Virus record (IMG/VR): IMGVR_UViG_3300042514_002691
Span: 1-33,514 of that record
From: a virus
DNA: 33,514 bases
Direction: 5' to 3' (one strand)
Both the position numbers and the translations under genes were made by a program. Under the pieces are notes generated by a model. That model saw nothing but the letters and a program-made list of their open reading frames with translations, did not search any database and was not told the origin of the DNA. This document shows positions 2,906 through 31,362 of this stretch, piece after piece. Each line of letters opens with the position of its first letter. The first letter of the stretch is position 1.

Positions 2906-2963
2906 ACTCGCCAGTTATCCCAAAGATTTTAAGTTGCATTTTTTTTAACTTTAACTTAATCCT

Positions 2964-2992
2964 ACTATATACTTTTTATATACCGCCGTCAA
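2964..2992 (-). promoter_or_regulatory. Promoter of the restriction-modification operon
   Basis: On the minus strand there is TTGACG (2992-2987), a 17-bp spacer and TATAGT (2969-2964), close to a sigma-70 consensus. The predicted start lies near 2957, about 50 nt upstream of the ATG at 2905. The -35 box overlaps the last codons and stop of the C5-methylase gene. The -35 and spacer belong to the 28-bp repeat described separately. Confidence 0.65.
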
Positions 2993-3004
2993 TCCCCAAA
3001 AGTA
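2977..3004. repeat. Direct repeat copy 1 (28 bp, promoter/operator-bearing)
   Basis: The 28 bases here match 5572-5599 at 25 of 28 positions in the same orientation. Both begin TATATACCG and end CCCAAAAGTA. In both places the reverse strand supplies the -35 box and spacer of a minus-strand promoter. The copies bracket the four-gene methylase operon. Confidence 0.75.
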
Positions 3005-4005: not shown

Positions 4006-4235
4006 TATTTCAAAACCCTACTTTCTATTTCTTTGCTAATCTCCAAAACTTTCCAGCGGCACTGATTTAGGTATTTAAAGGATTTATAATAATTTTTATA
4101 ATCCTTACTTTTCTCCTGCGCCACAGATTGTTTTTCCAATATTTCTACGCTTTCTTTTATGTTATAAAGCATCTGCCACAATACCTCTATATGAAGTATT
4201 TTTATTGTGTTTAAAAATGGGTCATACATTACCAA
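4005..4235 (-). CDS. Small coiled-coil protein in methylase operon (76 aa)
   Basis: The family is not recognised. The product is a 76-residue, helical, Lys/Glu-rich protein with no cysteine motif or membrane segment. It overlaps the 3' end of the Dam-like gene by 14 bp, and its stop codon overlaps the start of the C5-methylase (TAATG), so it is translated as part of a tightly packed operon. A role as an accessory to one of the methylases is only suggested by position. Confidence 0.6.
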   Translation of the reverse strand: MVMYDPFLNTIKILHIEVLWQMLYNIKESVEILEKQSVAQEKSKDYKNYYKSFKYLNQCRWKVLEISKEIESRVLK

Positions 4236-5142
4236 TAATTAACTCCTTAACTTTACCTCTTTCCGCGCCTTTACTATTTATCGTACCATTTCTCCAAACT
4301 TCATTAATTTTAAATTCATCCCCATTGTACAAATCTAAAATAAAACTATTGTGAGAATTGCAAAGTAAAAACTTTATTTTATTTTCATTGTATTCCCTAC
4401 ATACGTCTCTTAATTTAACTTGCTCATCTTCCCCAAACGGGCTTTTGTTATAACCATTAAAAGTCCCATGATAAGGTGGATCTAAAAATACAAAATCGCC
4501 AGGTTGAGGCAAATGACTAATATTAAAGAAAGATGTATTAACTACCGCTACATTATTACTGTTTAAGGCTAAATTACTGTTAGTTAAAAGTTCAGGTTGG
4601 TAAATAGTTTGTCCCGGCAGTCCGAAAGGAACATTAAAACTGCCGCTTTTATTAACGCGGTACATTCCCGATCTACAAGCTTTGTTTAAGTAGATAAATT
4701 TTGCAGCATTATAAACATCACTCTTAAATTGCTTATTTCTAACTTCTTCAAAAAACTCTTTATTGTGAGCTTCTGCGAAATCCTTTAAAAGAACTTGTTT
4801 TAATTTACTTAAATTATCCTTAACTTCTTTGTAAGTATTAACTAAGTCTTTATTTAAGTCACTTAAAAGTGCGCGGTTAATTAATCCTATATTTTGTAAA
4901 TGGAAAAACATTGCGCCGCCACCTAAAAATGGCTCAAAATAAGTATTAAATTCGGCGGGGATTAATCCTAATTCTTCGTATTGAGGAATTAATCTAGTTT
5001 TGCCTCCTACCCACTTAAGGAATGGTTTAAAATTTTTATCTTTAACTATTTCTGTTAAACAATTAAAGTCATGTTCGTATTTTAATTTTGCATTATTGGG
5101 AAGGACGGTTATAGCTTGAGGGTTGTTGTATGCGATCTTCAT
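4222..5142 (-). CDS. Dam-like N6-adenine DNA methyltransferase (D12 class)
   Basis: This 306-residue adenine methylase has motif X KWVGGKT (43-49), motif I FEPFLGGGA (69-77), the conserved YLNKACRSGMYRVN block (151-164) and the catalytic motif IV DPPY (221-224). This alpha-class (D12) order is that of Dam and phage T4-like Dam enzymes, many of which methylate GATC. It has about 40 extra N-terminal residues compared with typical Dam. It starts in an ATGA overlap with the preceding 127-aa gene. If GATC-specific it would also mark the GATC inside HIP1 sites. The likely role is viral DNA protection or methylation-dependent regulation; the specificity is inferred. Confidence 0.93.
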   Translation of the reverse strand: MKIAYNNPQAITVLPNNAKLKYEHDFNCLTEIVKDKNFKPFLKWVGGKTRLIPQYEELGLIPAEFNTYFEPFLGGGAMFFHLQNIGLINRALLSDLNKDLVNTYKEVKDNLSKLKQVLLKDFAEAHNKEFFEEVRNKQFKSDVYNAAKFIYLNKACRSGMYRVNKSGSFNVPFGLPGQTIYQPELLTNSNLALNSNNVAVVNTSFFNISHLPQPGDFVFLDPPYHGTFNGYNKSPFGEDEQVKLRDVCREYNENKIKFLLCNSHNSFILDLYNGDEFKINEVWRNGTINSKGAERGKVKELIIGNV

Positions 5143-11200: not shown

Positions 11201-11679
11201 TTAACTTGTCCGCGCGCGCCGCTAACGATAGTGTCATCGTGCCTGTTTTCTTTTTTTACAGTGCCAGGTAAATTAACAATCTCTACGCTTAAATTATTCC
11301 TTATAATAGGAAGATTTTTAATATATTTATCTTCCAACACTGCGCCAGTCCCGCATCCCTGCATAGCCAAATTCATCATTAAGCTTAATGCTTCCCAGTC
11401 TGTAATGTTTGTGGATGAGCAATTATAAGCACCGTAAACGTTTTCTGGCTTTTTTAACCAGTCTGTTCCGCCACACCACAGCCACCTTCCACTACTTAAT
11501 ACTTTAAATTCTTCCTGCGATCGCCTAATTAAGTCACCCTCAGCCTTAGTTAATTTTCCCAGAGAAATTAATGCCGTAATTGTCCGGTCACAAACATCTT
11601 GCCATGTCTCTTTTTTACTTCTTGAATAAGTGCGGTAAAACACAGGTTTTGCGGACGGAGCATAAACTTCGTTAAACAT
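8296..11679 (-). CDS. Adenosylcobalamin-dependent (class II) ribonucleotide reductase with intein
   Basis: The 1127-residue product contains a 332-residue intein, leaving about 795 residues of monomeric class II ribonucleoside-triphosphate reductase. It makes dNTPs through a B12-generated thiyl radical. Seen features: Cys87 in AYNCSST and Cys736 in NNFFCDLAEV (candidate active-site redox pair), the NP|CGEI loop with the predicted catalytic Cys726 after splicing, QPSGTKSLLTGASPGWHPP in the C-terminal barrel, and the C-terminal shuttle pair C1115-x4-C1120. It is transcribed against the virion genes. Phages often carry such enzymes to raise dNTP supply, and dCMP deaminase at 32754 fits the same role. 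The start at 11679 has only a weak AAGAAA ribosome site. Confidence 0.93.
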   Translation of the reverse strand: MFNEVYAPSAKPVFYRTYSRSKKETWQDVCDRTITALISLGKLTKAEGDLIRRSQEEFKVLSSGRWLWCGGTDWLKKPENVYGAYNCSSTNITDWEALSLMMNLAMQGCGTGAVLEDKYIKNLPIIRNNLSVEIVNLPGTVKKENRHDDTIVSGARGQVNIFVGDSRKGWVDSYLTLLELSSREDLAKNVKVFVCLGAVRSSGEKLRGFGGTANPIALAGMYGKLAKILNGAIGRQLTALELCKLIDEASVTIVAGNIRRSAGMRQGSPEDIEFATAKDNLWQQDNEGNWKIDPDKDCLRMANHTLVYHRRPTLEEVKKSVQKQFHSGEGAIQWAGEAVARANVDLLSNKDLKNKFLDLYNKSLNEALNFLAKLGLLSIAEAEERMSRYATNPCFRGDMKILTKDGYRTFESLDGQDVEIINAEGNVSLSHIWCSGEKETVRVGMGAYGSIHCTPDHSFLNIDGKRVDASELRPGDRLMPFLKVPEHKNKIFVCLGFVQGDGQLSDLSDLKGDKKGQLGVAVNIGKKDQEILEFFQETEGLKCKKHGERRIYVNGLNELIDKYDFSLYTLPFRALPSTYKGWDLDIKASFLSGLYSANGSVLKNGRVTLKTTCREMGEQVVDSLKADFGIEAYITINRPSTVSFPNGIYQCRESYDVNIQQYKGRLSFFNQINFIHSYKIDKFAKTLLATSPSISVVEKQGIVKVYDFSEPITHWGVVEGFVAHNCGEIVGNNFFCDLAEVHLNTLDGKDLNSLRDSFRAAGLIAAVLLNDKFPDERYQKSRELDPIVGVSFTGLFDFFVNLFGESWLRWWEGGREEYSDRDFITSKDLENWIETFPDEVVEIINDWNKSQGKFAIKHPGVCNGLLFKALEEFYLTLFKDEAHKAVWEYCHAHSLKRPNRCTTVQPSGTKSLLTGASPGWHPPKAARFIRRITFGRDDAVALACMDYGYGIIPSQSCKDAEGNLLNDPFDPRVTEWLVEIPTKTSWADNIGEDVDISKFSAKAQFDFYLQVQNYYATHNTSATLEIRQEEIGEYAQLLYQNIQNCGGYSSAALLARFDSGETFPRLPFEPISKEKYEDLWGEVLARRKNSSFDKLLQIRLSAAEVEDSQVGPAGCDSDKCLFKEVGK
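9505..10500 (-). other. Intein with LAGLIDADG homing-endonuclease domain, inserted at the reductase catalytic cysteine
   Basis: The intein spans residues 394-725 of the precursor. Block A starts CFRGDMKIL (Cys394), block B has IHCTPDHSF (T454-x2-H457), and block F/G ends VYDFSEPITHWGVV...GFVAHN with H724-N725. The +1 residue is Cys726. All splicing residues are present, so splicing should be intact and would restore TNPCGEI. The middle has two dodecapeptide motifs, LGFVQGDG (495-502) and SGLYSANG (592-599). The second has Asn598 where an acidic residue is expected, so DNA cleavage may be lost. Confidence 0.92.
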
Positions 11680-11774: not shown

Positions 11775-14186
11775 GTGTCAGAGAAAAATGCAAGGTTAGA
11801 ACTTAAGGATGGTGAAATTGCCGTAGGTCAAGCTACGCGATATTTTAATTTGGAAATTCTTCCCAACTTCTCAAAATCTTTAAATTTAAATAAGGATATG
11901 GAGGAAGAGGAGAGTGGGGAAGAAGTAGTAGGAAACTTAACCGCAAGTTTTGTTTTTTCTTCCGAATATCCAATCCTTAGATACGATTACTGGGAAGATG
12001 AGAGATATTACGAAGTTCTTTCCCATGAGCCAGGCTGTTGCAATACTCAAAGGGTTACAGAAGGTGTCTGCCCAATTCTTTGGAATCATAATTGGGATTT
12101 GCAACGCGGCATAGTAATGGGGGTAAATTTCTCCCAAGGTAAGGCTATTTGCGATGTCCAGTACGACGACAACGCAGAGGGTAGAGACTTATATAACTTA
12201 GTCCAAAAGGGTACTCGTAAAGGTGTTTCGTTCATGTACCAAGTACAGGATGAATACACCGAACTTCCCAAGAAAGAAGCCGCCGCTCTTATTGAAAAAT
12301 ACGGACTCGCAGACAGGGGTTATTACCCAGTCAGGATAAGTAAAAATTGGGAAATATTTGAGATATCCCATGCAAGCGTACCTGCCGATCCGACGGTAGG
12401 AGTAGGCAAAAGCCTACAGCGCAATGGAAAAGATGAGCCTAAAATTATTCAAATTAAAGGTAAAAATATGCCTCCACTAACACCTTTAGAAGAAGTTAAA
12501 TCTTCAACTCCCGACCCCGTTCCTGCGCTAGAGGAAAGGGAGATTGTAGCCGTAGCAGAGTTGAAGTCTCAAGGCTTAGATTTAGAAGCCGTTAGAAAAT
12601 TAATTCTTGAAACAGTAACTCCAGTTCGGGAAATGAATTTAGTTCTAGAACAAGAAAAATCTCAAGCCTTAGCAGAAAATTCAAGCTTAAAACAAGAATT
12701 AGACCAAGAACGCGCCGAGAGATTAAAAGCCCAGCAATTAGCTGATACCCTTAAAGATATTTCGCAGTTAATTGGCCGCCCCGGATCTGAAGTCGTCCCC
12801 GCCGTTAAAAATACCCCAAAGTTTGCCATGCAAGGTTTAGCTAAAGAATTTATTGACTTATTTAACAGTTCCAAAGCCGAACCTACAGAAGTTCGCCACG
12901 ATGGAATGGTTGCAGTCCAACGGAATCATAATGTTTTAGCTAGATTCATGCACGATCACTTCCGTGAAGAGCAAGCCACTAAGGGTTTGCGTAATTGGAA
13001 ACACTCTCCTTTGGTTAAAGAATTAGAAAATCACTTTAAATCTTCTGAGGGTGGCGGATTTCTTTCTGGTCGTGCGGCCGGGCCAACTATTGGATCGAGC
13101 GGCAGCATTGGCGCAATTTTCTTGGATGTTCTCTCAGCTTTAATGAGAGAAACTCACAACTCCAATAATATTTGGTGGCAGTTTGCTTCCACTATATATG
13201 ACTCAACATCTGCGCCCAATAAATCCATCCTGATTCCTCGCGCTAATAATTTAGCCGATCCTACAGATGTTAACGACTTCCTGATCAGCACAACCGACAC
13301 CTATACCAGCATTAATTATTCTCGTGGTACTTCTACGGATTCTCAAGGCTTGGAAATTACCACAGTCCCATTAACTATTGCTCAATGGGGTCTAGGTTTG
13401 AGCACAGGAGTAGGCAACCGCCCTGTATTTATTCCAGAATTTACTGAAGCTACGTCATTAATTGACTTAATGGCAGTGTTGGATAAAGTATTAATGCAGC
13501 ACTACTTCAAATTTGAAGATTTGATGGTGCGTAAGGAATACTTTAAGACAACTAAAGTTTATTACAACGATAAGGGTGAAGTAACGTCCGTTCCGGCTAA
13601 CGTTGCCGCAACAGATGACGGTACTTTAACTGAAGACTTCCTGTCTTCTGTTTATTCCCAGCTTTACGCCGACCAATGGCCAACTTTGCCTAATAACAGT
13701 TACATTTTGACAGTTCCCCCTAAATCCTTAGACAATCTAAAGAAATCTTTAGGCAAGCTTTACTCTCCTGTAACTGAAGAACAACGCCAGAATATTTCTA
13801 ACGTTCTCCGTGCGGCTTCTGGAATTGAAATCGGACAAAGCTCAGGTTACGTCGGTCAATATTGCGGCTTTGAAATTTTCTCAGGCAATACATGGGGTGT
13901 TGGTGCGCCAGGTGGATCTGATCCAACCGTAAACACAACTACTTTTGGCGCGGGTGCAACCGTTACTGAAGACTGTTTCGTATTTAGCTACGGTGCGGTC
14001 GGTCGCGGTATTGCATTACCAATGGAAGTTCGCGCTTCTGGTACAACTCCATTTAACATGGGAGAATCTTTTATCTGGATTAGCCGTGAACAAACTGGCG
14101 TTATTGACTTGGATGCAGCTTTAGCTTCCCCAGCAGGACAACAAACTCGTTGCGCTAAATTAAGAGTTGCGCGTAGGGCTGTTTAA
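11775..14186 (+). CDS. Prohead protease fused to HK97-fold major capsid protein
   Basis: This is a single 803-residue polypeptide. Residues about 50-215 are an S78-type prohead protease: WNHNWD with candidate catalytic His105, KGVSFMY with Ser152, and the closing EISHASVPADPTVGVG block. Residues about 255-330 form a Glu/Lys-rich coiled coil, equivalent to the scaffold or delta domain. Residues about 345-800 are the major capsid protein, including the N-arm, a helix-rich P domain and the terminal 'FVFSYGAVGRGIALPMEV' region. In many phages these are two genes; here the frame is uninterrupted. The GTG start has only a weak ribosome site; Met42 (11898) is an alternative. The cleavage point is probably between 330 and 390. 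Confidence 0.88.
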   Translation: MSEKNARLELKDGEIAVGQATRYFNLEILPNFSKSLNLNKDMEEEESGEEVVGNLTASFVFSSEYPILRYDYWEDERYYEVLSHEPGCCNTQRVTEGVCPILWNHNWDLQRGIVMGVNFSQGKAICDVQYDDNAEGRDLYNLVQKGTRKGVSFMYQVQDEYTELPKKEAAALIEKYGLADRGYYPVRISKNWEIFEISHASVPADPTVGVGKSLQRNGKDEPKIIQIKGKNMPPLTPLEEVKSSTPDPVPALEEREIVAVAELKSQGLDLEAVRKLILETVTPVREMNLVLEQEKSQALAENSSLKQELDQERAERLKAQQLADTLKDISQLIGRPGSEVVPAVKNTPKFAMQGLAKEFIDLFNSSKAEPTEVRHDGMVAVQRNHNVLARFMHDHFREEQATKGLRNWKHSPLVKELENHFKSSEGGGFLSGRAAGPTIGSSGSIGAIFLDVLSALMRETHNSNNIWWQFASTIYDSTSAPNKSILIPRANNLADPTDVNDFLISTTDTYTSINYSRGTSTDSQGLEITTVPLTIAQWGLGLSTGVGNRPVFIPEFTEATSLIDLMAVLDKVLMQHYFKFEDLMVRKEYFKTTKVYYNDKGEVTSVPANVAATDDGTLTEDFLSSVYSQLYADQWPTLPNNSYILTVPPKSLDNLKKSLGKLYSPVTEEQRQNISNVLRAASGIEIGQSSGYVGQYCGFEIFSGNTWGVGAPGGSDPTVNTTTFGAGATVTEDCFVFSYGAVGRGIALPMEVRASGTTPFNMGESFIWISREQTGVIDLDAALASPAGQQTRCAKLRVARRAV

Positions 14187-18567: not shown

Positions 18568-21500
18568 ATGGAATTACCACAATTAGTTGTTGAGTTAGTT
18601 GGTGATTACTCCAAGCTAATGGAAGATATAAAGAAGGCTAGGGTTGAGGCTATTAAACAAGCTCAATTTCTAGAGAAAGATCTTAATTTAACTATAGGCG
18701 TTAATGATGACTCGCTAAAAAACCTTAATAAACATTTTGACTTAAAGGTAACTCACTTTAAGCAAACACAAACTTATTTTAAAAACAATCCTTTAAAAGT
18801 TTTTGTTGATGACGGGGAATTAACTAACTTAAATAAGGAATTAGATAAATTAGGGCAAAGAAAGGTTACAGCTAATGTTAGCGTTAACAATAACGGCAGT
18901 GGAAATAAAAACAATACTGTAGGAGATGTCGTAAAGGGTGTAATTATGTCACCTGTGAATATGGCTGCGAATATAGCCATGTCGCCGTTTAGGGCTGTAG
19001 GAAAAGTAGCTGATGCCATAGGTAAAGGTATTGATAATATTGCAGTTGGATTTACTGAAGAAATCGGTAGATCGATGTCTATTAAATTAACAGGGAAAAG
19101 TACAAAACAGTTTGCTAAAAAAATTCAAGATGGATTTAGGCTAGTTGATGAAGAAATTATAGGAAAGTCCCAGGTCTATGAAACTTTTTTTGCAGAATTA
19201 ATCAGTAGCGGTAGTTTCGATAAAGCTAAATTTGCTGCCGGAAAAAGAACTAAAATGCAAAAACAGCTTAATAGGCTAGGAGATTTACAAGTAATCGCAA
19301 ATCTTGAGGAAGAGTATAAATCTAATAAAAACACTCCATCCTCTATTGAAGCTGTTGACCGAATTTTGTCCGAAGAGCCTGAATTAAAGAAAAAGTTTGA
19401 AACAATTTCTTCCAAAAAATCAAGCTTGTCGTTGGATGAACACAAGAGGAGATTTATTCCGACAATCATAAAAGAAGCTCAACCCACTGACTTGTCGAAC
19501 AAAGTTATTCTCCCTTTGATGAAAGAAGTTCAACCAATTCTTAATTTTATACAGGGGATGCAGTCCTATCATACAAGCAAGCTGTCCGAATCTCACTACC
19601 AAGCAAGAAAAGCAACCTTCCCTATACTAGAGCCTGGACAAAAGGTGGTTTCTGTAATCGGGGGTGCTGAGGATAAGTTCGGACAGGGTGGCCGCGCACT
19701 CGCTACTTCCTTAGAACCTATTGTTGGGAAGAATATAAAATTGTTACCAGTGGAAAATTTGGACACAGATGTTAGCAAAAGGACTGCTGAAATAGATAAG
19801 TGGACTGATGACGTATTAATAAAAAAACTTCTCCCTGGGATGGGATCGTTATCTCCAACTATAAAGAATGCGGTAAGACAGATCGCCTATTCGCTAAATC
19901 CTCTAGGATCGGACGTAGCCGCCGCTCAAGCTTTAGCTCACACAAGGCTGGCTAGAGAACAAGGAAACGACGCTTCGGCTATCAGCTTCTCTCTTGGTGG
20001 CGCAAGTGCTTACAGGTATGCAAAAGCGGCGGAGTATGAAGGGACTAAGACAAAAGCACTAGCTATGGCTTATCCTTTTTCAAATTTATCAAATGCAACA
20101 CCTAAAGGTTTTGCATCTGCAATTTTAGAAAAAGATCCCTTAACTTTCCCGTTTAAAATAGGTGTTTATAATCCGAGCAGTGCAATGAACATCCTTGATG
20201 ATTCAGGTCTAAGATCGTCAGGGGCAAACGTTCATGCGACACATCACTTATTTCGATCTCCTGGTTTTGTCGAAAAATTTAATGACACTGTAGGTAGTAG
20301 TTTACCTACAGACAAGACATCAAGAGATACTATGTCTGACTTGCAAAGACTCATGTTGCAGGTTCACCAAGTAGTCATTTCTACGATGCACGCTAAGGAT
20401 TTAGCCTCTAAGGGGCAATACAGTCAAGGTGTAATAAAAAACTTATTTGATTCTAAATACCTTTTTGGACAATTATCCAACGAACGGATGCCGGAACAGG
20501 TGAGATCAATGGCAACCATACTTCGAGGTCAGGCTGTGGACGCTGGCACATTAATGCTATCAAATGCAGAAAAAACAGAACGTCCTACAGGGCAATTGAA
20601 AGATTTGCCCAATGATGAATCTCATCCTGGATATCAAAGATATAAACAAGAGGCATCGGTTATCAATCAATCTATTGAATCTTTTAAAACTAGAACGGTT
20701 GTACCAGGAGCTTACTTCGCAGGTGGTTTGAAAAGAGAAGATGTTGCTGCAAGAAACCAAGAACTTTCACAAAAAACTATCCCTTGGTTTAAATCACAAA
20801 AACAGTTCGAGGAATACGGAAGAGAAATAATTAAAGGGCTTGAAATTGTTGCAAAACTGCAAGAAGAGTTTGTTAGAACTCACGGCAATATATCGCCAAA
20901 ATTTTTAGACAAGATTGATTATTTGCCTACCGAAAATCTCAAAACCGACGTTATGGAAAAGATTAAGTTCCCGGATAATGTTACCGATCCCGGATTTATG
21001 AGGTATGTGGATGAAGTTAGTGGCATTAATGAGTCTATTCAAACTTTTAAAGAAAATAAAGCAATCCCTGATAAGGGTTGGTGGGCTGGCGGACTGAACG
21101 TTGGCAAAGTTGCGGAACGCAAGCGAGATTTGTCTATAGCAACAATTCCTTGGTTTGAATCACAAAAACAGTTTGAAGAGTACGGAAAAAAAATCGTTCA
21201 AGGATTTAAAGTAATTCTGTCGTTACAAGAAGAATTTATTAAAACCAAAGGAAATATATCGCCTGACTTTTTAGATAAAATTGAGTATTTACCGACAATT
21301 CCAGGGTCAGAAAAAATACCAAAGTATGCTTCTGAGCAAAGTCCTGAGTTTCGCAATTTATCGGAATACTTTGAAGAAAATTTAAACTTAAAAAAACTAC
21401 CGATTTCGGATGCTATGAGAGAACACCCAGCGTCAATTTTAGGGTTTAATAAAATGCTTAAAACTATAGCTCCGATGATGCCGGACGCTAAAGAAATTAA

Positions 21501-24500
21501 AGCTGTAGGTCATGGATGGTCTGGAGCTATGGCTTTGATAACCGATAAATTGGTTTACAAAACTGATTTAGATCCTGAAGGTGCAAAAAAAATAGCATCA
21601 AAACAGGAAGTTAAAGCTTATGAAAGACTACAGGGCAGATACGCCCCGTTACTTTATGCGGCGAACGAAAAAGAATCTATGATTGTAGAAAAAATAGAAG
21701 GGAGGGACTTGAAGAAAATTATGGAGGACTATGCAGCACCCATAAGAGCCTCGAAAGAAGAACAAGCAAAGTTAAAGAAAGAGACAAAACCAAGGATAGC
21801 GAAATTAGAAAATGAATTAGAAAACGAAAAAAACCCTGAGAGAAGGAAAGAAATAAAAAAAGCTATAGAGGATTTAGAAAACGCCAACAAATTATTAGAC
21901 AGACAAATCCGAAAGGATATAAAGCAATTTAATGAAATATTTTCACAGTTCTATCGTTATGTCGGAAGTTTGGGTAGGGCTATGCAAGACATGGGTGTTG
22001 TTCATAACGATCTAGCTTCCGCCAATGTATTTTTTAAAGACTATAAAATCGATCCAGTAACAAACAAAGTAGATCCTGGGAAAATATCAGCAATTGATTT
22101 AGGTATATCCACAACTATGCCCTCTGCCAAGCAGAAAGCTGAGGATGAGGCGACAACTATTCAAAGAGCTTTAATAGACGTTTCATTGTGGGGAATATTA
22201 GATGCTAACAAAATAAGGAACAGTATAAAGAAAGGGTACAAAAAAGCCCTGCCCATACCCGAAGCTAGGCAAATAGATCCTTCGTTACTTATACCGCTAA
22301 ATCCTGCTAAAGAAATACCGATAGGTTATTCGGGCAAATCGTTACTGCAAGAAACTGTTGGGGATTTACCACAATTTAAACCAACGGCCATTTTACCAAC
22401 TTATACTGTTGAAAAATCTTATACTCCAACTCCAGTAAGCACAATCCCCAAGGGATATCAAGTAATTAAAGTTAACCCAGTTACTCAATCTACATCCGTA
22501 AGCGCAACCCCCAACGGATATCAAGTAACTAGAGTTAACCCAGTTACTCAATCTACATCCGGTAAAGATATTGAGGTGTCAGAAAAAGCCAAACTTGCGG
22601 TAAAATCAGCGCAAGAATTAGCCGCTAAATTTAATGCTAATTTCGCTAAACTAAGATCCCTGTTAAAAGATGCAGAAACAACTGGTAACTTCGCTCCAGT
22701 TATTGAGTTATCTGCGGCGATTAAGCAGTATGGAGATAAAGCCAAAGCTGATATAACAAAATTAAGAAATAGTGCAGGAATAGATCCTAATTTTGCAAAA
22801 AGCAGAGAGAGTTCACAACTAAGCAATTCTTTATCACAAATAACTTCTGTTCAAAATAAAGCAGCGAGAATAAGTGCGTTGCATGGAGGAGTTAGAATTG
22901 GCGAAAATATAGGAGCGGGCGTAAGTGAAGGTGTAAAAAATAGCATAGGTGATTTACGCACTGCGGCTGAAAAATTAGCAGATATAGTACCTGACGTAGT
23001 TACAGAAAAATTAAAAATGCAATCTCCATCTAAAGTAATGGAGGGGTATGGCGAAAATGTAGGTGCGGGCATGACCGAAGGTTTGGAAAGTTCATTAAAA
23101 GATTTACGTACATCTTCTGAAAAATTAGCAAATACAGTAATAGATACAGTAGAAGAAAAATTAGAAATTAAATCACCCTCAAGATGGGCTATTAGAACTG
23201 GTCAAAATATAGGCAATGCTATGGGGACGGGTGCGGACGAATCCTTAAATAGATTTAAAACAATCATCGCCTCGAAAATAAGCGAAATGAGGAAGGGGAT
23301 AGAGGGTATTTCTCCAACTAAATTTAATTACGCTACTTTACCTAAGCCATTCCCTAGCACTAGCTCCTTTCCAATTCTTCCTACTTCTTACGAACCTTCT
23401 ACTAGAACAATCTCAAGTGCCGTAATACGTGCAGCAATAGAGAATGAGCGCAAAAGAAGACGCGCTGCGGGAATGATAAATGGCATACCCGATCCTTGGA
23501 ACACTCCTGCGGGTCACGGACTCCCCAACATTGTAAGTACAAACCAAAAGAGAGTTTTTCCCATAACTCCCGATCCTTGGAGTTCACCACAATCTCATCA
23601 AAACCCACCATTATCCTATACCATCCCTGGCACAACAAGAAGCGGCACAAGCCCTGGACTTCCAAACACTTCTTCTATTCCCCCAGCTTATTTACCCCCC
23701 CAAGTTCCTCAATCCATATCCTTCCCAATATCTAATACAACACCAAGGGGTATTGCGCCCCAACTACCCCCATTCCTACCAAATGGTATTCCCCAAGTTC
23801 CACAATCTACGATAGAAAATGGCGTAAAGAAAAATTCCCAGTCATTTGTAAGACTTGGCATAATGTTGGGCAAATATGTAGGTGAAGGTTTCACTAAGGG
23901 TCTGCAATTCTTAGAAGGTGGTAACAATGGCATAATTCCATCGCTCATTAGACAAATAAACAGAATTAAAGAATCTGTAGAAAATGGCACAATTACATCT
24001 GACGTAGAAAAAGATAAAGAAAGATTAAGCCGAGGCTTTAGTAAAGGATTAGGAAGTATCCCAGGATTTAAGGAAGCTAAGGAAAGATTTAAGGGTTATT
24101 TAGATTTCCTTAAGGAAATCGCCAATCCTAACGTATCGGCAGCATTAGGCGAGGGGTTAGCTAACGGTATTGTTGCAGCTAAGGAATTATTTGTAGATTT
24201 CCTTAAGATGCCAGAAAAAATTAAGGAAGGGTTCATCCAGGCTAAGGTGGCTTTTGATAGTTTTGTAGAGGGAATGAGTAAAGTCCAGAAATTTGGCGAG
24301 ATGATGGACTTTGTTAAATCTTCTATAGGTAATGTTGTTAAAGTCCTAGCTTTGTTGGCCGTAGGGAAAATTATCTTAGATTTAGCTCCCGCAAGCATAG
24401 AAGTCGCCGCTAACTTTGAGAATTTAGAAAGACGGATTAAGTTCACTTCTGGAAGCATTTCAGAGGGTGCTAAAAATATTGCATTTTTAAGATCGGAAGC

Positions 24501-27500
24501 AAAAAGACTCAACGTTGACTTAAGCCAAACTTTAGAAAGTGGCAGTAAATTCTTCCAGGCAACTAAGGATACTCCCATAGAAGGCTATCAATCTCGCCAG
24601 ATCGTTAGCGCAGTCACTCAAGCTTCGGCTGTCTATGGTTTAGATTTAGACAAGCAGCAAAGGACTTTTACCGCGCTTGAGCAAATGTCTGGAAAAACGG
24701 TTGTATCTCAAGAGGAATTAAGACAACAACTCGCTGAAGCAATCCCCAACGCTTCGCAAATCGCCGCAAACGCTTACGGAACAACCACCCAGTCCATGAA
24801 CCAATTATTAAGTACAGGCAGGGTTTTAGCTGAGGACTTTTTGCCAAAATTTGCTCAACAATTAAAAGCGCAAACTTCATCAGGTGTAGGAGATGCCGTT
24901 AATTCTTCAGTGGCGATAACTAATAAATTCAATAATTCCTTAATTGAGTTACAGGAAAGTATTGGTAAAACTTTACTGCCTTTCAGAAACTTTTCTTTAA
25001 GTGTTTTTGCGTCTGGTATAGATTTAGTAACTAAGAATTTCCAACTCTTAAAAAGTGTCTTACTGATTACCTTAATTAAATTAGGAAGTCCTGTTTGGTT
25101 AATGTTTGCGACGTATTTAAAAGGAATTTCCTCTTCTGCGGGAGGGGCTAAGGGTGCATTGCTGGGGATGGGTCAAAGTATTGCAACTTTAGCCGCTCAG
25201 ATGTTTGTTTTATCAATGGCGATGAAAGCTATTGATGAAATAATGATGAATTTCAAGGATAACAGCGGCGCAATTGGCGAACAGACTAGAAACGTTACTC
25301 AGTCTATTAATGAACAAAGAAAATTATTAAATCCATCCTCTAAAGTTAGCCGTGATGACTTTTCAGCATTTAGAGAAAGATTTACGCTTAACCCATTTGA
25401 TAACGATACAAAAAAACTAATAAAACAAATGAAGGATAGTGCCAAACAAACAACTATTGGGCAACAAAACACTTTCGATATTTTGAAAGATAGTAACTCT
25501 CCTGCTATACAAGATGCTATCCAAGAAATTCAAGCCATTGATAAATCTTTGGATGATATTAAAATGAAGCGTCGGGCTGTTATTGCTAACAATCCTGGCG
25601 ACATTCAACAATTAAGAGAACTGCAAGAACAAGAAAAAGAATTAAGTCAAAGAAGAGAAAAGCCCTTAGAATTGTTTGGCGGAACTAAAGCTAATTTAGA
25701 CAAACAAGTAGAAACTTTAAAAACTTATTTGGAGTATTGGGAAGAACTAAAGAAAAATCCCAAACTTTATCAAAGTGAAATTGAACAAATTAATAAAATA
25801 ATTAAGGTAACTGAACAAGATTTAGCCACAGTTATTCAAGAACAAGACAAGATGACTAAGGCTATTAAAAATTCCTTAACAGAAATGCAAAAATTTGCAA
25901 TTGAAATAAGGAACTTAGAAGCTAAGTTTAACGATCTAAGACAATATAGAGATACAGCATTAAGTTTAGAGAAAACTAATTTATTTAATCTTGGCAGCAG
26001 TGGGGACGTTTTACCAGGGCAACTGGAATATACGAACAACTTAAAAACTCAAGCCACTCTGACTGGTAAAATTGCCGATAATTTAAAACAAATCCAAGAG
26101 ATGTCCGCTCAATTGGAAGTTAATGATTTAGATGGAGTCTTAAACGCCCTTAATTTAAATAAAAGAAGCGGTATAGACACCTTAAAGGCTGCACAAGAAA
26201 GAAGTATTGATGGAAGTAAAGAAAAAGAGATTTTAAGTGGCTTTATAAAAGTTAAGGAAATGCAAATCCAAACTGTTGATATGCAACAACAAATTGCAGA
26301 GCAGAAATATAACTTAATCCAAAGCCTCTACCAACAAACAAAGCAAGTCACCGACTATTATCGCGCAGCCGTTCGAGAATCTCAAGCTGTGGGTATTGAA
26401 TTTGAGAAAGCACAAAAGACCTTTGAAAACTCTAAAGTACAGAATAAACTTAGAGAGGCTTTAATTGGTGCTGGGGACAATATCTACACTCAGTTTATTG
26501 AGGGAATTATTAATGTAATTTCCCAAACAACCGAAATAGAGAAACAACAACTAGAAGCAAGAAAACAGAGGATTGACTACCAGAATAACGTCCAAGATAT
26601 TCAGCTACAAGCTATAGAACTACAACGGAGTTTACCAGGAAAAATTATCCCGATAGATTCTAGTATTGCCGATAACTTTAATCTCAGTCTTAAAAACGTA
26701 AACAGGACGGTTGATGAAATTAATAAGAATATAAATAACTTATCTAACAGTGTTGTAGACGCAACTAAAAAAGCTGAAGATAGTATTAAAGACTTAAGTA
26801 AAACTAGCAACTCATGGATAGAAGGTCTTGGTACTAAGTTTGCAGATTTAGTTAAGTCTTTTGAGAACGGCTTTGATCGCGTGGGGACTGCGATCGCTGA
26901 TATGGGAATAAAAACCTCCAACTGGTTAGCTTCCCTGTATACCGGACAAGGCTTGTTACAAAATTTAGCGGGCGGTGTTCAATCGGCGGTTAGCACGGTG
27001 TTTGGGGAAAAAGCTGGGCAACAGTTAGAGCAGGGTGCTAAAGAGTTCGTTAGTAATCCGTTAGGGGCTGTCAAAAAGTTCTACGGATTGGATAATTTAC
27101 AGACTGTTAATCAAACTTTGCTTAGACCTACGCCGGGGCGCGTAACATCTAAGTACGGAATGCGTACAGACCCATTGGACGGCACTAGAAAAATGCACAA
27201 CGGTGTTGATTTTGAAGACGCTACAGGAACACCAATTAAAGCACCACTGACAGGCACGGTTATCACATCTAAAGGTGGTTGGAATGGTGGTGCGGGCAAT
27301 ATGGTCGAAGTTGAAACCATCACCGCAGAAGGTAAAAAAGTTGTAAACCGCTTTTTTCACTTATCTGAATTACTTAAAAAGGTTGGGGACGTTGTACAGC
27401 AAGGTGATGTAATAGGTAAAGTTGGAAGCACTGGGCGTGGCACAGGATCGCATTTACATTGGGAGGTAACGATCAACGGTCAAAGGATAAACCCAACTAC

Positions 27501-30500
27501 CCAGTTAGGTAAAACTTTTAAAGTACCTGGGATTAAATTGGATACAACCAAAAAGGTTGTTGATACCACACAAGACAACAAGATGCTGAACAGGGTAGCA
27601 GATTGGCCGATGCCTCAACAACAGCCAACAAAATCAATAATACTAACCCCTGGACACAGACTAGACATCAAAACAGGTACAGGCGGAACAAATCAAACAG
27701 GAAGTTTAAACTACAAAGGCGAAAATAGAACTATTGAATCTATTGGGACTGAGCAAGCCGTCAAGGTATTCGAGCGAGTCTTTGCTCAAAAAGGGTTTAA
27801 ACTCATTCAGCCACCCCCACTACCGTCAGCTAGAGGGGATCAAGCCAGAAAAGATTATCAAACGGAACTTGCTAAGTTAGAGAAAAGCAAAAATGCTTAT
27901 GCGTTAGAACTACATTTTGATGACCCTAAAGGGGGTAAATCCGGCGTAATTCCAGGGGGTAAATACGATCCGTCTGGTAAATATTTGAATCCAATGGATG
28001 TTGGTTTAGCAAACAAATTTGGAGCATTTAGTTATTTTTGGGGTGTGGGTGGTAAAGACGTTAGAAAAAACCCTGATGAACACTTGGGAGCTATTGACAA
28101 GGGAATTTCTATACTAGAGTTGGATAGATTAAATTCAACTCTTACAACCTTGATTGAAGAAGGTGTGAAAACAGGCGATTTTAGTGCTTACGAAAAAGCT
28201 ATTACACCTTACGCATTAAAAGCGGCAGAAGGTTTGATATCGGTAATCGAACCCATTGCTAAACAACGCCAATCAGTTCCGCTTGTTCCAGGGCTAGATC
28301 CACGTATAGATACCAAGTTCCTGCAAAGCGTTAGCGAAATAGCTCAAAGCGTAGGAGCAAACCCTGAAGACCTGCTTAAAACGATGCTGTATGAAACAGG
28401 TGGTACACTTTCGCCATCTGCTAGGAACAAACGCACAAACGCAACAGGTTTAATTCAGTTCATGCCCGCTACGGCTAGAGGACTGGGTACAAACATAGAT
28501 GCTCTGTCTCAAATGAGTCCACAAGAGCAATTAGTCTTTGTTCAGAAATACTTAAAACAGAACAGTAGAGGGCAAAAGCTAGACTCCTTCCGAAAAGTTT
28601 TATCTACCGTTTTTGCGGGAAATCCTAACGCATCATTAGGAGTAGGGGATGGTGATATTACGCTAGGTAATTACCTCCCCAAAGCAGAAAATCGGTACGG
28701 CAATACAGCGCGACAATTGGTGCAGATTGTTATGCAAGGCGGAAGTATTCAACCCAACCAAATGCAGGAAGCGGTAACACAAGCTAGTAGACTTAAATTA
28801 AACACCGCTGCCCAACAATATCAAACTAATCAAACTAACAGCAACCTAAATCCTGAACAAATCAGAGAAAATGAGCTAAAACAAAGGCTAGAGGCTTACA
28901 GGCTTATTATGTCCTCTCAAAAAACCGCGATAGGAGACATCAGCAGTACGAAAGATTCTACTCTAGGGACTAGAATAACGGTGTTAAAAGGTTTATCTCC
29001 TAACATGAGTAATGCGGATATGTTTAGTCTCCAATTTAATGAATTACGCCGCAAATTAGAGAAAGATGTTGAGTTGTTAGAGCAAATTGTTAGAGAAACG
29101 GATGGAGCGATCGCGCAAAAACCGGACTTACAAGCCGCATTTAATCTGGCAATGAAGAGATTTCCTAATGATCCGAGATTAGCCGCAGCCGCAATCCAGA
29201 CAAACGATCTAAGTTTTAAAGCTACAGCTTTTAAAAATGCAGAAGCTAAAAATAGCTTGAAATTTTTAAAATCCAATATTGATAGCATCCTCAAAGCGTC
29301 AATGAAAGATTTTGACAAAAAAGAGTTTTTCAGATTAAGCGAGCGGGATATATCGCAACAATCAAAAGTTATTGAACAACTACAACAACAGTTACAGTTA
29401 GTTCAAAAACTTGAGGAAATTGACCCGCTAAATCCGTTGGTTTTAAAAATTCCATCACTTCAAAGAAATATTAGCTTACTAGAATTAACCCGTGACCAAT
29501 ACCAACAATTACTAGACCTCCAAAGACGTTATTATGATGGCGGAGGTAAGGGCGGTAACATGAGTGAAGCAGCTTTTCAGAAGGAATTTAAAGCCATTCT
29601 CAATGTTAATTCTGTTAAAAGAGAGGGCGTTGATCTTAACTTTAATTATGCCGATACAGTTAAGCGAATTAAGCAAGCTAACGACGAATTAACTAAATCG
29701 CAAACTATCCAAGCCTCGCAAATGAAATCATTGCAACTAGACAATGAACGGTTTGCGATTGACAATAAGGATGGGATGGTTAGTTTAGTCAGCTTAACCA
29801 ATGAATTAACAATAAAAACTAACGAGCTAACTAATGCTTACAAGAAACAATTATTGGAAATTCAAGGTAACACCTTACTTAGTCCACAAGAAAAATTAAT
29901 AGAACGACTAAAAGCTTTCCGTAATTACGGAAAAGAAAAATCTAACCTTGACGCAGAAAATTCTTACCAAACTAAGCTCGCGCCGATTACAAATAGAGGC
30001 ATTGAACTCGGCAGGATGGAAAAATTAAATTCATCCGGTAGTGCAATTTCTTCCGAGATAATAAGAGGTCGGGGTTTGTTCGGAGTTAGAGACAAGGAAT
30101 TGCAAAAAGCACAGCTTTTATCACAAATTAAGATGGATTTTGAGAAGGAAAAAAACGAAATAGCTAAACTAGGATTATCAAGTAATTATTCAGCAGAAGA
30201 AATATCTGTACTTAGTGAAAATTTACTTAAGCTAAACGAGTTAAAACTAGACAATGTTGCGAAAGAATTTAATATGTTCACCGAGGCTATTAGCGGAATT
30301 AAAGGAGATTTTGACAATATCCTAAAGGGATTTTTCATGAACGACTCTGTTAATAAAAACGCTGGCGATTTACAGGATATTAATAAATCCCTAGATGAGA
30401 TTGCTAAGAAACGCCGCGACATTATAATGAATACGTCCGGTAATATTCAGGAAGTAAGAAACGCATACCAAAATTCTGGCAATAACAAACAACTAAAAGA

Positions 30501-31362
30501 ATTAGATAGAGCGCAGAGAGACTTAGAAAAGAAAAAGACGGAGTTGAGTAAAAGAAGTATAGTCGATGCTTTTAGCGAGATTGCAAAAAGTATTTTAAGC
30601 AATTTAGCTGCTGTTGCAAGTAAGGAACTGTCTAACCAACTATTTGGTAAATTAACTGAAATTATTTTTGGCAATAAAGCTAAAGACGTGGGCGCGATCG
30701 CTTTAAATAACGCGGGAGCTAATCTAAGTGTGTCCGCTACAATGCTACAACAAGCGGCTTTAGCCTTGCAAAATATTATGGGCGCAGGTAGCAAAGATGG
30801 CGGAGTGCTAGATAGTATTTTTGGAGCGTTTGGAGAGAGTAGTTTTGGAATACTCGAAGGCAGTAGCGCAATCCCATTTAGTTCTAGCGGAGCATTTGAC
30901 TTTAGCGATGGTTTTAGCTTAGGTGGTTTAGACGGCGGATTAGACTTTGGTTCAGCTACGCTCCCTAGTTTTGCTAAAGGCGGAATGGTTGGGGATTTAT
31001 TAAACAAGGAAAGGGCGATAAGTGGGTTTAACCCACGCTTAATTATCGCTAACGAAGGTGAACGGGTTTTAACTCCAAAAGAAACTAAGTTATGGAATCA
31101 ACTAAACAGTAGTAATAAATTGGAGAGTTTCAGTAGCGGCGGTATGATAGGTGAAGGTTTAGGGAATATTAATAACGTAGGAAGAAGTGGAGATACGATT
31201 AACATTACGCCTAACGTGAACATTAATAATAGCGAGGGTGGCAACGGCAACATTAACAAAGCCTTGTTTGAAAAAGCTTTAGAAGCAAAAATCCAAGAGA
31301 CAATCAAGCAAGAGCGTCGTCCTGGAGGTAGCTTAAACAGAGGTGGTTTATATGATAGGTAA
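18568..31362 (+). CDS. Giant multidomain tape measure protein (4264 aa)
   Basis: The gene follows the chaperone by 5 bp with GAAGAG before its ATG. Visible regions: hydrolase-like domain (about 360-575); two tandem repeats of about 120 residues (685-915); kinase-like domain (972-1235); three IGENIGAG...SPSK units (1442-1560), a repeat type common in tape measures; Pro-rich linker (1585-1750); tape-measure core with RRIKFTSGS and VSQEELRQQLAEAIPN (1932-2230) and hydrophobic segments near 1925 and 2165; coiled coils; M23 peptidase (2850-2980); amidase_3-like domain (3020-3220); lytic transglycosylase (3225-3350); coiled coils to about 4060; and a glycine-rich end with AKGGMVGD and ANEGERVLTP, typical of tape measures. 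It sets tail length and probably opens the cell wall during infection. It is intact, with no frame break over 12.8 kb. Confidence 0.9.
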   Translation: MELPQLVVELVGDYSKLMEDIKKARVEAIKQAQFLEKDLNLTIGVNDDSLKNLNKHFDLKVTHFKQTQTYFKNNPLKVFVDDGELTNLNKELDKLGQRKVTANVSVNNNGSGNKNNTVGDVVKGVIMSPVNMAANIAMSPFRAVGKVADAIGKGIDNIAVGFTEEIGRSMSIKLTGKSTKQFAKKIQDGFRLVDEEIIGKSQVYETFFAELISSGSFDKAKFAAGKRTKMQKQLNRLGDLQVIANLEEEYKSNKNTPSSIEAVDRILSEEPELKKKFETISSKKSSLSLDEHKRRFIPTIIKEAQPTDLSNKVILPLMKEVQPILNFIQGMQSYHTSKLSESHYQARKATFPILEPGQKVVSVIGGAEDKFGQGGRALATSLEPIVGKNIKLLPVENLDTDVSKRTAEIDKWTDDVLIKKLLPGMGSLSPTIKNAVRQIAYSLNPLGSDVAAAQALAHTRLAREQGNDASAISFSLGGASAYRYAKAAEYEGTKTKALAMAYPFSNLSNATPKGFASAILEKDPLTFPFKIGVYNPSSAMNILDDSGLRSSGANVHATHHLFRSPGFVEKFNDTVGSSLPTDKTSRDTMSDLQRLMLQVHQVVISTMHAKDLASKGQYSQGVIKNLFDSKYLFGQLSNERMPEQVRSMATILRGQAVDAGTLMLSNAEKTERPTGQLKDLPNDESHPGYQRYKQEASVINQSIESFKTRTVVPGAYFAGGLKREDVAARNQELSQKTIPWFKSQKQFEEYGREIIKGLEIVAKLQEEFVRTHGNISPKFLDKIDYLPTENLKTDVMEKIKFPDNVTDPGFMRYVDEVSGINESIQTFKENKAIPDKGWWAGGLNVGKVAERKRDLSIATIPWFESQKQFEEYGKKIVQGFKVILSLQEEFIKTKGNISPDFLDKIEYLPTIPGSEKIPKYASEQSPEFRNLSEYFEENLNLKKLPISDAMREHPASILGFNKMLKTIAPMMPDAKEIKAVGHGWSGAMALITDKLVYKTDLDPEGAKKIASKQEVKAYERLQGRYAPLLYAANEKESMIVEKIEGRDLKKIMEDYAAPIRASKEEQAKLKKETKPRIAKLENELENEKNPERRKEIKKAIEDLENANKLLDRQIRKDIKQFNEIFSQFYRYVGSLGRAMQDMGVVHNDLASANVFFKDYKIDPVTNKVDPGKISAIDLGISTTMPSAKQKAEDEATTIQRALIDVSLWGILDANKIRNSIKKGYKKALPIPEARQIDPSLLIPLNPAKEIPIGYSGKSLLQETVGDLPQFKPTAILPTYTVEKSYTPTPVSTIPKGYQVIKVNPVTQSTSVSATPNGYQVTRVNPVTQSTSGKDIEVSEKAKLAVKSAQELAAKFNANFAKLRSLLKDAETTGNFAPVIELSAAIKQYGDKAKADITKLRNSAGIDPNFAKSRESSQLSNSLSQITSVQNKAARISALHGGVRIGENIGAGVSEGVKNSIGDLRTAAEKLADIVPDVVTEKLKMQSPSKVMEGYGENVGAGMTEGLESSLKDLRTSSEKLANTVIDTVEEKLEIKSPSRWAIRTGQNIGNAMGTGADESLNRFKTIIASKISEMRKGIEGISPTKFNYATLPKPFPSTSSFPILPTSYEPSTRTISSAVIRAAIENERKRRRAAGMINGIPDPWNTPAGHGLPNIVSTNQKRVFPITPDPWSSPQSHQNPPLSYTIPGTTRSGTSPGLPNTSSIPPAYLPPQVPQSISFPISNTTPRGIAPQLPPFLPNGIPQVPQSTIENGVKKNSQSFVRLGIMLGKYVGEGFTKGLQFLEGGNNGIIPSLIRQINRIKESVENGTITSDVEKDKERLSRGFSKGLGSIPGFKEAKERFKGYLDFLKEIANPNVSAALGEGLANGIVAAKELFVDFLKMPEKIKEGFIQAKVAFDSFVEGMSKVQKFGEMMDFVKSSIGNVVKVLALLAVGKIILDLAPASIEVAANFENLERRIKFTSGSISEGAKNIAFLRSEAKRLNVDLSQTLESGSKFFQATKDTPIEGYQSRQIVSAVTQASAVYGLDLDKQQRTFTALEQMSGKTVVSQEELRQQLAEAIPNASQIAANAYGTTTQSMNQLLSTGRVLAEDFLPKFAQQLKAQTSSGVGDAVNSSVAITNKFNNSLIELQESIGKTLLPFRNFSLSVFASGIDLVTKNFQLLKSVLLITLIKLGSPVWLMFATYLKGISSSAGGAKGALLGMGQSIATLAAQMFVLSMAMKAIDEIMMNFKDNSGAIGEQTRNVTQSINEQRKLLNPSSKVSRDDFSAFRERFTLNPFDNDTKKLIKQMKDSAKQTTIGQQNTFDILKDSNSPAIQDAIQEIQAIDKSLDDIKMKRRAVIANNPGDIQQLRELQEQEKELSQRREKPLELFGGTKANLDKQVETLKTYLEYWEELKKNPKLYQSEIEQINKIIKVTEQDLATVIQEQDKMTKAIKNSLTEMQKFAIEIRNLEAKFNDLRQYRDTALSLEKTNLFNLGSSGDVLPGQLEYTNNLKTQATLTGKIADNLKQIQEMSAQLEVNDLDGVLNALNLNKRSGIDTLKAAQERSIDGSKEKEILSGFIKVKEMQIQTVDMQQQIAEQKYNLIQSLYQQTKQVTDYYRAAVRESQAVGIEFEKAQKTFENSKVQNKLREALIGAGDNIYTQFIEGIINVISQTTEIEKQQLEARKQRIDYQNNVQDIQLQAIELQRSLPGKIIPIDSSIADNFNLSLKNVNRTVDEINKNINNLSNSVVDATKKAEDSIKDLSKTSNSWIEGLGTKFADLVKSFENGFDRVGTAIADMGIKTSNWLASLYTGQGLLQNLAGGVQSAVSTVFGEKAGQQLEQGAKEFVSNPLGAVKKFYGLDNLQTVNQTLLRPTPGRVTSKYGMRTDPLDGTRKMHNGVDFEDATGTPIKAPLTGTVITSKGGWNGGAGNMVEVETITAEGKKVVNRFFHLSELLKKVGDVVQQGDVIGKVGSTGRGTGSHLHWEVTINGQRINPTTQLGKTFKVPGIKLDTTKKVVDTTQDNKMLNRVADWPMPQQQPTKSIILTPGHRLDIKTGTGGTNQTGSLNYKGENRTIESIGTEQAVKVFERVFAQKGFKLIQPPPLPSARGDQARKDYQTELAKLEKSKNAYALELHFDDPKGGKSGVIPGGKYDPSGKYLNPMDVGLANKFGAFSYFWGVGGKDVRKNPDEHLGAIDKGISILELDRLNSTLTTLIEEGVKTGDFSAYEKAITPYALKAAEGLISVIEPIAKQRQSVPLVPGLDPRIDTKFLQSVSEIAQSVGANPEDLLKTMLYETGGTLSPSARNKRTNATGLIQFMPATARGLGTNIDALSQMSPQEQLVFVQKYLKQNSRGQKLDSFRKVLSTVFAGNPNASLGVGDGDITLGNYLPKAENRYGNTARQLVQIVMQGGSIQPNQMQEAVTQASRLKLNTAAQQYQTNQTNSNLNPEQIRENELKQRLEAYRLIMSSQKTAIGDISSTKDSTLGTRITVLKGLSPNMSNADMFSLQFNELRRKLEKDVELLEQIVRETDGAIAQKPDLQAAFNLAMKRFPNDPRLAAAAIQTNDLSFKATAFKNAEAKNSLKFLKSNIDSILKASMKDFDKKEFFRLSERDISQQSKVIEQLQQQLQLVQKLEEIDPLNPLVLKIPSLQRNISLLELTRDQYQQLLDLQRRYYDGGGKGGNMSEAAFQKEFKAILNVNSVKREGVDLNFNYADTVKRIKQANDELTKSQTIQASQMKSLQLDNERFAIDNKDGMVSLVSLTNELTIKTNELTNAYKKQLLEIQGNTLLSPQEKLIERLKAFRNYGKEKSNLDAENSYQTKLAPITNRGIELGRMEKLNSSGSAISSEIIRGRGLFGVRDKELQKAQLLSQIKMDFEKEKNEIAKLGLSSNYSAEEISVLSENLLKLNELKLDNVAKEFNMFTEAISGIKGDFDNILKGFFMNDSVNKNAGDLQDINKSLDEIAKKRRDIIMNTSGNIQEVRNAYQNSGNNKQLKELDRAQRDLEKKKTELSKRSIVDAFSEIAKSILSNLAAVASKELSNQLFGKLTEIIFGNKAKDVGAIALNNAGANLSVSATMLQQAALALQNIMGAGSKDGGVLDSIFGAFGESSFGILEGSSAIPFSSSGAFDFSDGFSLGGLDGGLDFGSATLPSFAKGGMVGDLLNKERAISGFNPRLIIANEGERVLTPKETKLWNQLNSSNKLESFSSGGMIGEGLGNINNVGRSGDTINITPNVNINNSEGGNGNINKALFEKALEAKIQETIKQERRPGGSLNRGGLYDR
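19645..20292 (+). other. Alpha/beta-hydrolase-like region of the tape measure protein
   Basis: Residues about 360-575 begin with a hydrophobic strand ending in a glycine turn (VVSVIGGAED). ISFSLGGASAYRYAKAAE (472-489) looks like a nucleophile elbow followed by a helix, with Ser475 as the candidate nucleophile. The canonical first Gly of GxSxG is Ser473 here. A late histidine cluster (H556, H559, H560) could supply the catalytic His. A lipase or esterase fold is inferred; it may be inactive. Confidence 0.45.
20620..21312 (+). repeat. Coding tandem duplication in the tape measure gene
   Basis: Residues 685-804 and 805-about 915 are diverged copies about 120 residues apart. Aligned landmarks are HPGYQRY/DPGFMRY, FAGGL/WAGGL, TIPWFKSQKQFEEYG/TIPWFESQKQFEEYG, LQEEFVRTHGNISP/LQEEFIKTKGNISP and FLDKIDYLPT/FLDKIEYLPT. 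The unit matches no domain known to me and sits between the hydrolase-like and kinase-like regions. Confidence 0.85.
21481..22272 (+). other. Protein-kinase-like domain of the tape measure protein
   Basis: Residues 972-1235 show kinase landmarks in order: glycine loop GHGWSG (981-986), strand VYKTD with Lys998, helix C KQEVKAYE with Glu1014 or Glu1019, hinge-like IVEKIEGRDL, catalytic loop HNDLASANV (His1146, Asp1148, Asn1153) and the metal-binding DLG (Asp1177). A charged helical insertion lies at about 1060-1120. The HND form recalls the RIO/APH/ABC1-type kinase-like superfamily more than classical Hanks kinases. All main catalytic residues are present, so activity is possible; the substrate is unknown. 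Confidence 0.75.
22438..22563 (+). repeat. 63-bp tandem direct repeat in coding sequence
   Basis: Two in-frame 63-bp units (22438-22500 and 22501-22563) encode variants of GYQV-KVNPVTQSTS and GYQV-RVNPVTQSTS. The stretch AGTTAACCCAGTTACTCAAT is identical in both. It is a recent duplication in the linker after the kinase-like domain. Confidence 0.85.
27115..28617 (+). other. Three successive murein-hydrolase domains in the tape measure protein
   Basis: M23 peptidase: MHNGVD (H2877, D2881) and SHLHWE (H2962, H2964), the complete LytM zinc and catalytic set. Amidase_3-like: ILTPGH (H3030), Glu3057 or Glu3062, ALELHFD (H3116) and ILELD (E3184). Lytic transglycosylase: MLYETGG with Glu3276 and ATGLIQFMPATA (3292-3303). 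Together these could cut peptide, amide and glycan bonds of peptidoglycan. The M23 and SLT calls are firm; the amidase call is less so. Confidence 0.8.

Follow-up and report, generated by a model that had tools for sequence, protein, structure and literature searches.

The 33,514-base virus contig studied here (IMG/VR record IMGVR_UViG_3300042514_002691; 'the window' in the following) carries on its plus strand an open reading frame (ORF) for a tape measure protein (TMP) of 4264 residues (18568–31362), within which residues ~961–1229 (~21448–22254, bounds taken from a structural alignment) almost certainly adopt a kinase fold, as the predicted structure indicates. The domain is likely to be catalytically active. 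Sequence comparison assigns it to a conserved family of TMP-borne kinases; it adjoins a hydrolase-like region, and both belong to a cassette that near-identical phages exchange. This suggests that phage tail rulers might be carriers of interchangeable cargo enzymes. A preliminary description of the window had placed a protein-kinase-like domain inside the TMP, at 21481–22272; this is borne out by the predicted fold, by profile matches and by an invariant catalytic set, and the span lies near the bounds given above.

The catalytic residues are found where they had been described. Lys998 lies in the motif KLVYKTD (from residue 994) and Glu1014 in KQEVKAYE (from 1012), the catalytic loop runs from H1146-N1147-D1148 to Asn1153 (22003–22026), and the metal-binding D1177-L-G (22096–22104) is part of IDLGIS (from 1176); loop and metal site are apparent in both the sequence and the alignment. 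A coiled-coil insert of 49 residues (1063–1111; 21754–21900) is recognizable in the sequence and modelled as long helices; these features, like all TMP features below, are on the plus strand. In profile searches, the intact domain gives weak matches to the Pfam families APH, Kdo and Pkinase (E 0.008–0.02). When the coil is excised, all six families matched at E <1 among 24,736 models are kinase-fold families, with Pkinase as the best (E 0.0027), still short of the curated cut-offs; in the copy of contig L168, treated likewise, one family is left (RIO1, E 0.06). The window domain reaches 13.4–17.6 bits for Pkinase (PF00069; cut-off 31.7), 12.8–16.4 bits for APH (PF01636; cut-off 23.2) and, with the coil excised, 13.4 bits for RIO (PF01163; cut-off 22). 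It is also matched by phrog_4098 (E 5.7e-5), in whose sequences, by eye, an APH-like part succeeds a nucleotidyltransferase. At E ≤0.1, 14 of 16 homologues match APH, 13 Pkinase, 13 Kdo, 11 RIO1 and 11 Kinase-like, with best E values of 1.6e-6 for APH and 4.3e-5 for RIO1.

Structure prediction likewise yields a kinase fold. From an alignment of 16 kinase-domain sequences, AlphaFold2 produced five models with predicted local distance difference test (pLDDT) values of 81.3, 80.6, 76.7, 62.5 and 51.8, the best having a predicted template modelling score of 0.74. Its order of secondary structure elements agrees with the kinase plan: in the model, strand 3 bears Lys998 and helix C bears Glu1014, HND comes behind the long helix E, Asp1177 lies beyond the strands that come next, and helices at model positions 253–269 and 279–291 follow the DLG site. 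In a Foldseek search of the PDB, PRPK-TPRKB came first (E 2.0e-4) and Bud32 next (E 9.9e-4), with no others below 0.001. In VIA-align, PRPK again ranks first, with Z 13.3 (root mean square deviation 3.2, 191 residues aligned), followed within ~2 Z units by Bud32 (12.1), WaaP (11.7), APH(2'') (11.3) and RIO1 (11.3). Among the 1000 top-ranked Foldseek chains, all have Z ≥5 and 544 have Z ≥8, and the 50 structural matches listed are all kinases or kinase-fold phosphotransferases. The 16-sequence profile, searched against PDB sequences, retrieved kinases as well (best E 0.00079; RIO2 0.0019; a Bud32 chain 0.0053), and among the 60 matches listed a single one is a non-kinase by name (2h9z, E 0.38).

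These results bear on the idea that a coiled-coil TMP segment merely resembles kinase motifs by chance. The weak scores of the single sequence speak for it, as do the first two PDB sequence searches, in which a tail fibre ranked on top of the kinases by virtue of the coil (E 0.0085 and E 0.38), and an AlphaFold2 run on the single sequence of residues 932–1301, which was uninformative (pLDDT 44). The matches of the coil-free domain and of the homologue profiles, the invariant residues, the predicted fold and the structural matches refute it as far as prediction can, and we regard such a coincidence as barely credible.

The assignment of the carrier protein as a TMP rests on the Pfam domain TMP_3 (residues 1944–2132, the TMP body; 24397–24963; E 2.2e-19), on matches to PHROG tape measure families (best E 3.1e-29) and on the position of the ORF downstream of the head genes, with a protease/capsid ORF upstream. 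Its N-terminal residues 1–92 (18568–18843) form a conserved head that is common to phages with differing cassettes. Over residues ~1–100, this head is 40.6% and 34.0% identical to the TMPs of two Cylindrospermopsis phages, and such phages also provide the best match of the capsid region (31.6% identity), in both cases among 50,697 phage records. The host is therefore likely a cyanobacterium; the preliminary description had named a cyanobacterial host outright, which these matches favour but do not prove.

The kinase is not confined to the window. Near-identical relatives were found first, at seven loci in viral contigs, and a screen of TMPs with the common head added L168 and L171, at ~62% identity. 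The DNA pattern HNDLAxxN[V/I]xF matched 27 viral contigs in IMG/VR, of which 26 encode the kinase domain; the match in L239, which does not encode it, is due to chance. An independent scan with the 16-sequence alignment gave 27 loci, namely the same 26 contigs and a fragment (L269). Because both scans converge on the same 26 contigs, the family seems to be a small one within this collection. These contigs comprise seven of the window type, two of the L225/L231 type, ten of the L219 type and five of the L220 type, as well as L235 and L243. In every one of them, the kinase ORF also bears the TMP head, the TMP body or both: a profile of the TMP head matches 20 of the 26 ORFs (E ≤7e-9) and a profile of the TMP_3 region 13 (E ≤3e-20), together 23, and the remaining ORFs, in L219, L224 and L229, are incomplete, with longer stretches of the same contigs (L257, L259 and L268) carrying the TMP head. 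PHROG tape measure families also match all four divergent kinase ORFs that were compared with them (L226, L228, L235 and L243). Residues 1684–1996 of the L228 TMP strongly match the end of the portal family phrog_21 (E 1.6e-58), possibly as another shared module.

Outside these contigs, tblastn with the window domain found nothing at E ≤1 among the 50,697 phage and 72,556 plasmid records, nor did the kinase copy of L228 match the phage records at E ≤0.1. A pattern search of genome contigs matched 82 stretches, none of which was confirmed, and profile searches of 386 genomes from the phylum of Leptolyngbya sp. PCC 7375, made with no positive control, gave no hit (E ≤1e-3; E ≤1e-4); six weak protein matches in these genomes (E 0.001–0.01) were discounted, as they overlap the coil and adjoining helices. 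We also scanned other TMPs, using 21 segments (≤1750 residues) from 20 of 26 clusters, the window type, the isolates L009 and L010 and the short fragments L159, L167 and L187 being set aside; 25 of the 40 matched families were listed, so that a kinase of another family is possible there. Two of the 21 segments show a weak SprT-like match (best E 0.01), possibly another cargo domain.

Six representatives of the kinase lineages, five of them 37–60% identical to the window, share 66 invariant columns out of 311 covered. These include G983, G986, K998, E1014, E1041, H1146, N1147, D1148, N1153 and D1177, and HND is contiguous in all 16 aligned rows. Ratios of nonsynonymous to synonymous substitution rates (dN/dS), given solely for pairs with more than five changes and unsaturated synonymous sites, are 0.13 for L220 and L227 versus L234 and 0.17–0.54 for the listed pairs within the L219 type. 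The domain could instead be an inert passenger or a pseudokinase acquired by recombination, as might be read from the replacement of Gly1179 of the DLG site by Ser in L225 and L231 and from dN/dS values of at least 1 within the window group and between those two contigs. We consider this improbable: the catalytic set is intact in all lineages, dN/dS stays within 0.13–0.54 in two of them, and in six lineages the domain is found at the same position beside the same hydrolase-like region.

This region spans residues 308–622 in the window (19489–20433), is delimited by a nine-sequence alignment and carries the motif SxSxGG at Ser473/Ser475. It precedes the kinase in all ten records inspected, and in the nine aligned sequences Ser475, Asp523, His556 and His560 (numbered as in the window) do not vary, although the ten records were picked by their SLGG motif, so that the invariant Ser is partly a selection effect. 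In Pfam, one of the nine members gives a weak match to Abhydrolase_6 (E 0.18), and a profile search of the PDB for residues ~308–622 yielded nothing at E ≤5. We therefore call the region hydrolase-like at the level of motifs. Between it and the kinase, at ~20650–21300, the TMP seems by eye to contain an internal duplication, for which a blastp self-comparison gave no separate pair.

Together, the two regions lie in a cassette (18844–23975, its limits set where identity to L145-type contigs breaks off and resumes) that is replaced in near-identical phages. Six contigs of two other types (L145–L150) match the window at 99.3–99.7% identity for ~8.3 kb, as far as positions 18842–18844, and then diverge; the left breakpoints agree within about three bases, and the same left flank is found in L151 (4.9 kb) and in L011/L012, the contigs of L143/L144 (5.9 kb, 99.8%). 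The switch point corresponds to TMP residue ~92–93, beyond which follow unrelated cassettes without a kinase. In the first type (L143–L147), identity resumes at 23975 (98.4–99.3%), in the second (L148–L151) at 26314 (99.1–99.8%); L152 is more distant, with 90.6% identity in the left flank and no right-hand match. Unrelated cassettes thus sit between flanks that are 98.4–99.8% identical, as expected of an exchangeable module between conserved parts, a trait of phage polymorphic toxins. Using phmmer with the kinase as query, we found no match in L011, L012, L014, L016 or L143–L152. In the first alternative cassette, inspection by eye points to a different hydrolase-like sequence (GTSGGS), for which Abhydrolase_3 reaches no better than E 0.12, and the second, of the L149 type, has no recognizable enzyme. 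Among the 18 contigs with this TMP head (17 at ≥80%, plus L188, which ends 21 residues into the head), seven have the kinase and five each have one of the other cassettes. Units of an SPS-motif repeat (22898–23251), with patchy 88–93% matches in L004, L008, L011 and others, recur in differing cassette types, and the closed TMPs of the group are 3765–4264 residues long, with one open frame of at least 4504. We rejected assembly chimaeras as the source of these differences, because each cassette type comes from several samples, even though L143 and L144 share one.

Since near-identical phages do without it, the kinase is dispensable and has an accessory function, which favours a host-directed cargo over a role in assembly. 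The kinase could nevertheless act in the cell that makes the virions or on the particle itself, for instance by phosphorylating the TMP or proteins of the tail while the virion is assembled, is stored or ejects its DNA; ATP is present during assembly, and the domain does belong to a structural protein. As phages that are 99% identical around the cassette lack it, tail assembly does not need the kinase, and we deem this role unlikely. Somewhat less unlikely, in our view, is that the cassette varies as the host-facing part of the TMP at the inner membrane, through a change of partner or escape from TMP-directed defence, with the kinase as a binding module or passenger. According to a study on lambda-like phages and Bas14 (PMC13190303), whether a phage escapes SNIPE or requires ManYZ depends on TMP residues ~100–150 and 300–400, and the exchange described here begins at residue ~92–93; the L149-type cassette without a recognizable enzyme would also fit. 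Invariant catalytic residues at 37–60% identity would, however, not be needed for mere antigenic variation.

The reading that we propose instead starts from an exchangeable cargo cassette directly after the TMP head, in which an atypical, Bud32/RIO/APH-type kinase accompanies the hydrolase-like region. The TMP is built into the tail and leaves it with the DNA in the direction of the host's envelope and inner membrane; the cassette would thereby be delivered to the host, probably passing the tube in extended form and refolding once through. There, within minutes of the onset of infection, the kinase would phosphorylate some component of the host, most probably a protein, to the benefit of the phage, for example by blunting a membrane-located defence or host gene expression. 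A kinase requires ATP; therefore, this part of the TMP would most plausibly either enter the cytoplasm or work in the producer cell. Precedent comes from lambda: PMC13190303 reports that, while the phage injects its DNA, ManZ labels the TMP at the inner membrane, and that the TMP is associated with SNIPE, a defence protein of the host. We lean slightly towards delivery of the kinase into the host. That host-directed phosphotransfer is its main role seems to us an evenly balanced question, and we are equally divided on the full proposal of a delivered cassette whose kinase phosphorylates a host component. The broader notion that the TMPs of these phages act as delivery vehicles, with a fixed head and body and a slot of shuffled enzymes injected to reprogramme the host at DNA entry, is more tentative.

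Several observations weigh against this proposal. The intact window domain remains under every curated Pfam cut-off, and two of the five AlphaFold2 models are weaker (pLDDT 62.5 and 51.8). Constraint is not evident in the dN/dS values for the window versus L230 (1.5; 7 changes) and for L225 versus L231 (1.2; 22 changes), and near-identical phages exist without the kinase. Finally, a siphovirus tail tube measures ~4 nm inside; a folded domain of 270 residues should not fit, and it must therefore travel unfolded.

Besides the kinase, the TMP contains a peptidase M23 domain (residues 2875–2976; 27190–27495; E 2.6e-25) and an SLT-like lytic transglycosylase segment (28408–28563; E 0.00053, 20 bits versus a Pfam cut-off of 21.3), so that unrelated enzyme domains are united in one phage polypeptide, as in polyvalent proteins. 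An amidase suspected by eye in its C-terminal half was dropped, as Pfam gives no support. A second variable slot (27060–28275) spans the M23 peptidase; it holds a substitute of ~0.64 kb in L006, L008 and L146, and L004 lacks 27637–28261. Elsewhere in the window, a single ORF of 803 residues (11775–14186) combines a prohead protease match (PF04586) with a capsid-like region. The minus strand encodes a B12-type ribonucleotide reductase with LAGLIDADG and intein-splicing domain matches (8296–11679) and three neighbouring DNA methyltransferases of distinct families (Eco57I/N6, C5 and D12; 470–5142).

The preliminary description knew of no TMP with a kinase fold, and the literature that we searched, in which most subscription papers and all bioRxiv preprints were lacking, showed no TMP-kinase fusion either. 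If the proposal is true, phosphorylation joins the earliest contact between phage and host, in a probable cyanophage group. TMPs determine the length of the tail and assist the DNA in crossing the membrane, and the finding bears on what else they may do: with a conserved kinase in an exchangeable slot, delivery of cytoplasmic effectors by TMPs becomes directly testable, and near-identical natural phages with and without the kinase offer the comparison.

Among known systems, a close parallel in architecture is Kinase-PolyVal (PF18762), a kinase-superfamily domain in large multidomain phage proteins that, in the available text of Iyer et al. (2017; PMC5512222), is predicted to be co-injected with the DNA; cassette recombination is suggested there too, and polyvalent proteins are reported to be scarce in cyanobacteria. 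The term 'tape measure' occurs nowhere in PMC5512222. As described in the same text, PF18762 has lost the C-terminal subdomain and has an insert between the catalytic His and Asp, whereas the TMP kinase has a contiguous HND and helices after the DLG site. With neither defining trait present and no match of the PF18762 profile to the window at E ≤1, we rejected membership in this family.

In fold, Bud32/PRPK, the KEOPS kinase, and RIO are among the nearest solved structures, and one Bud32-type chain has an HNDL catalytic loop; unlike these, at 15–18% identity to their structures, the kinase described here has a coiled-coil insert and is embedded in a TMP. Its best match in a viral structure library is a RIO-like kinase of Synechococcus phage S-CBWM1 (A0A3G1L3P9; Foldseek E 3.6e-5), a separate protein of 286 residues outside the TMP. 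Likewise, the kinases annotated in the cyanophages MinS1 (ORF19) and PaV-LD (ORF037R) are separate genes, as far as the available parts of the sources tell.

Enzymes inside TMPs have a counterpart in TMPs with cell-wall hydrolase domains, which act during entry, and the TMP of the window resembles these in its M23 and SLT-like parts; unlike wall hydrolases, the kinase depends on ATP, an argument for the cytoplasm or the producer cell as its site of action. Lastly, the MuF polymorphic toxins of temperate phages are, in the accessible text of PMC5576092, also multidomain phage proteins with variable effector parts; unlike in those toxins, exchange affects an interior stretch of the TMP, beyond its head. 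Phage enzymes delivered with the virion are known already, and the kinase within a TMP would be a new form of them.

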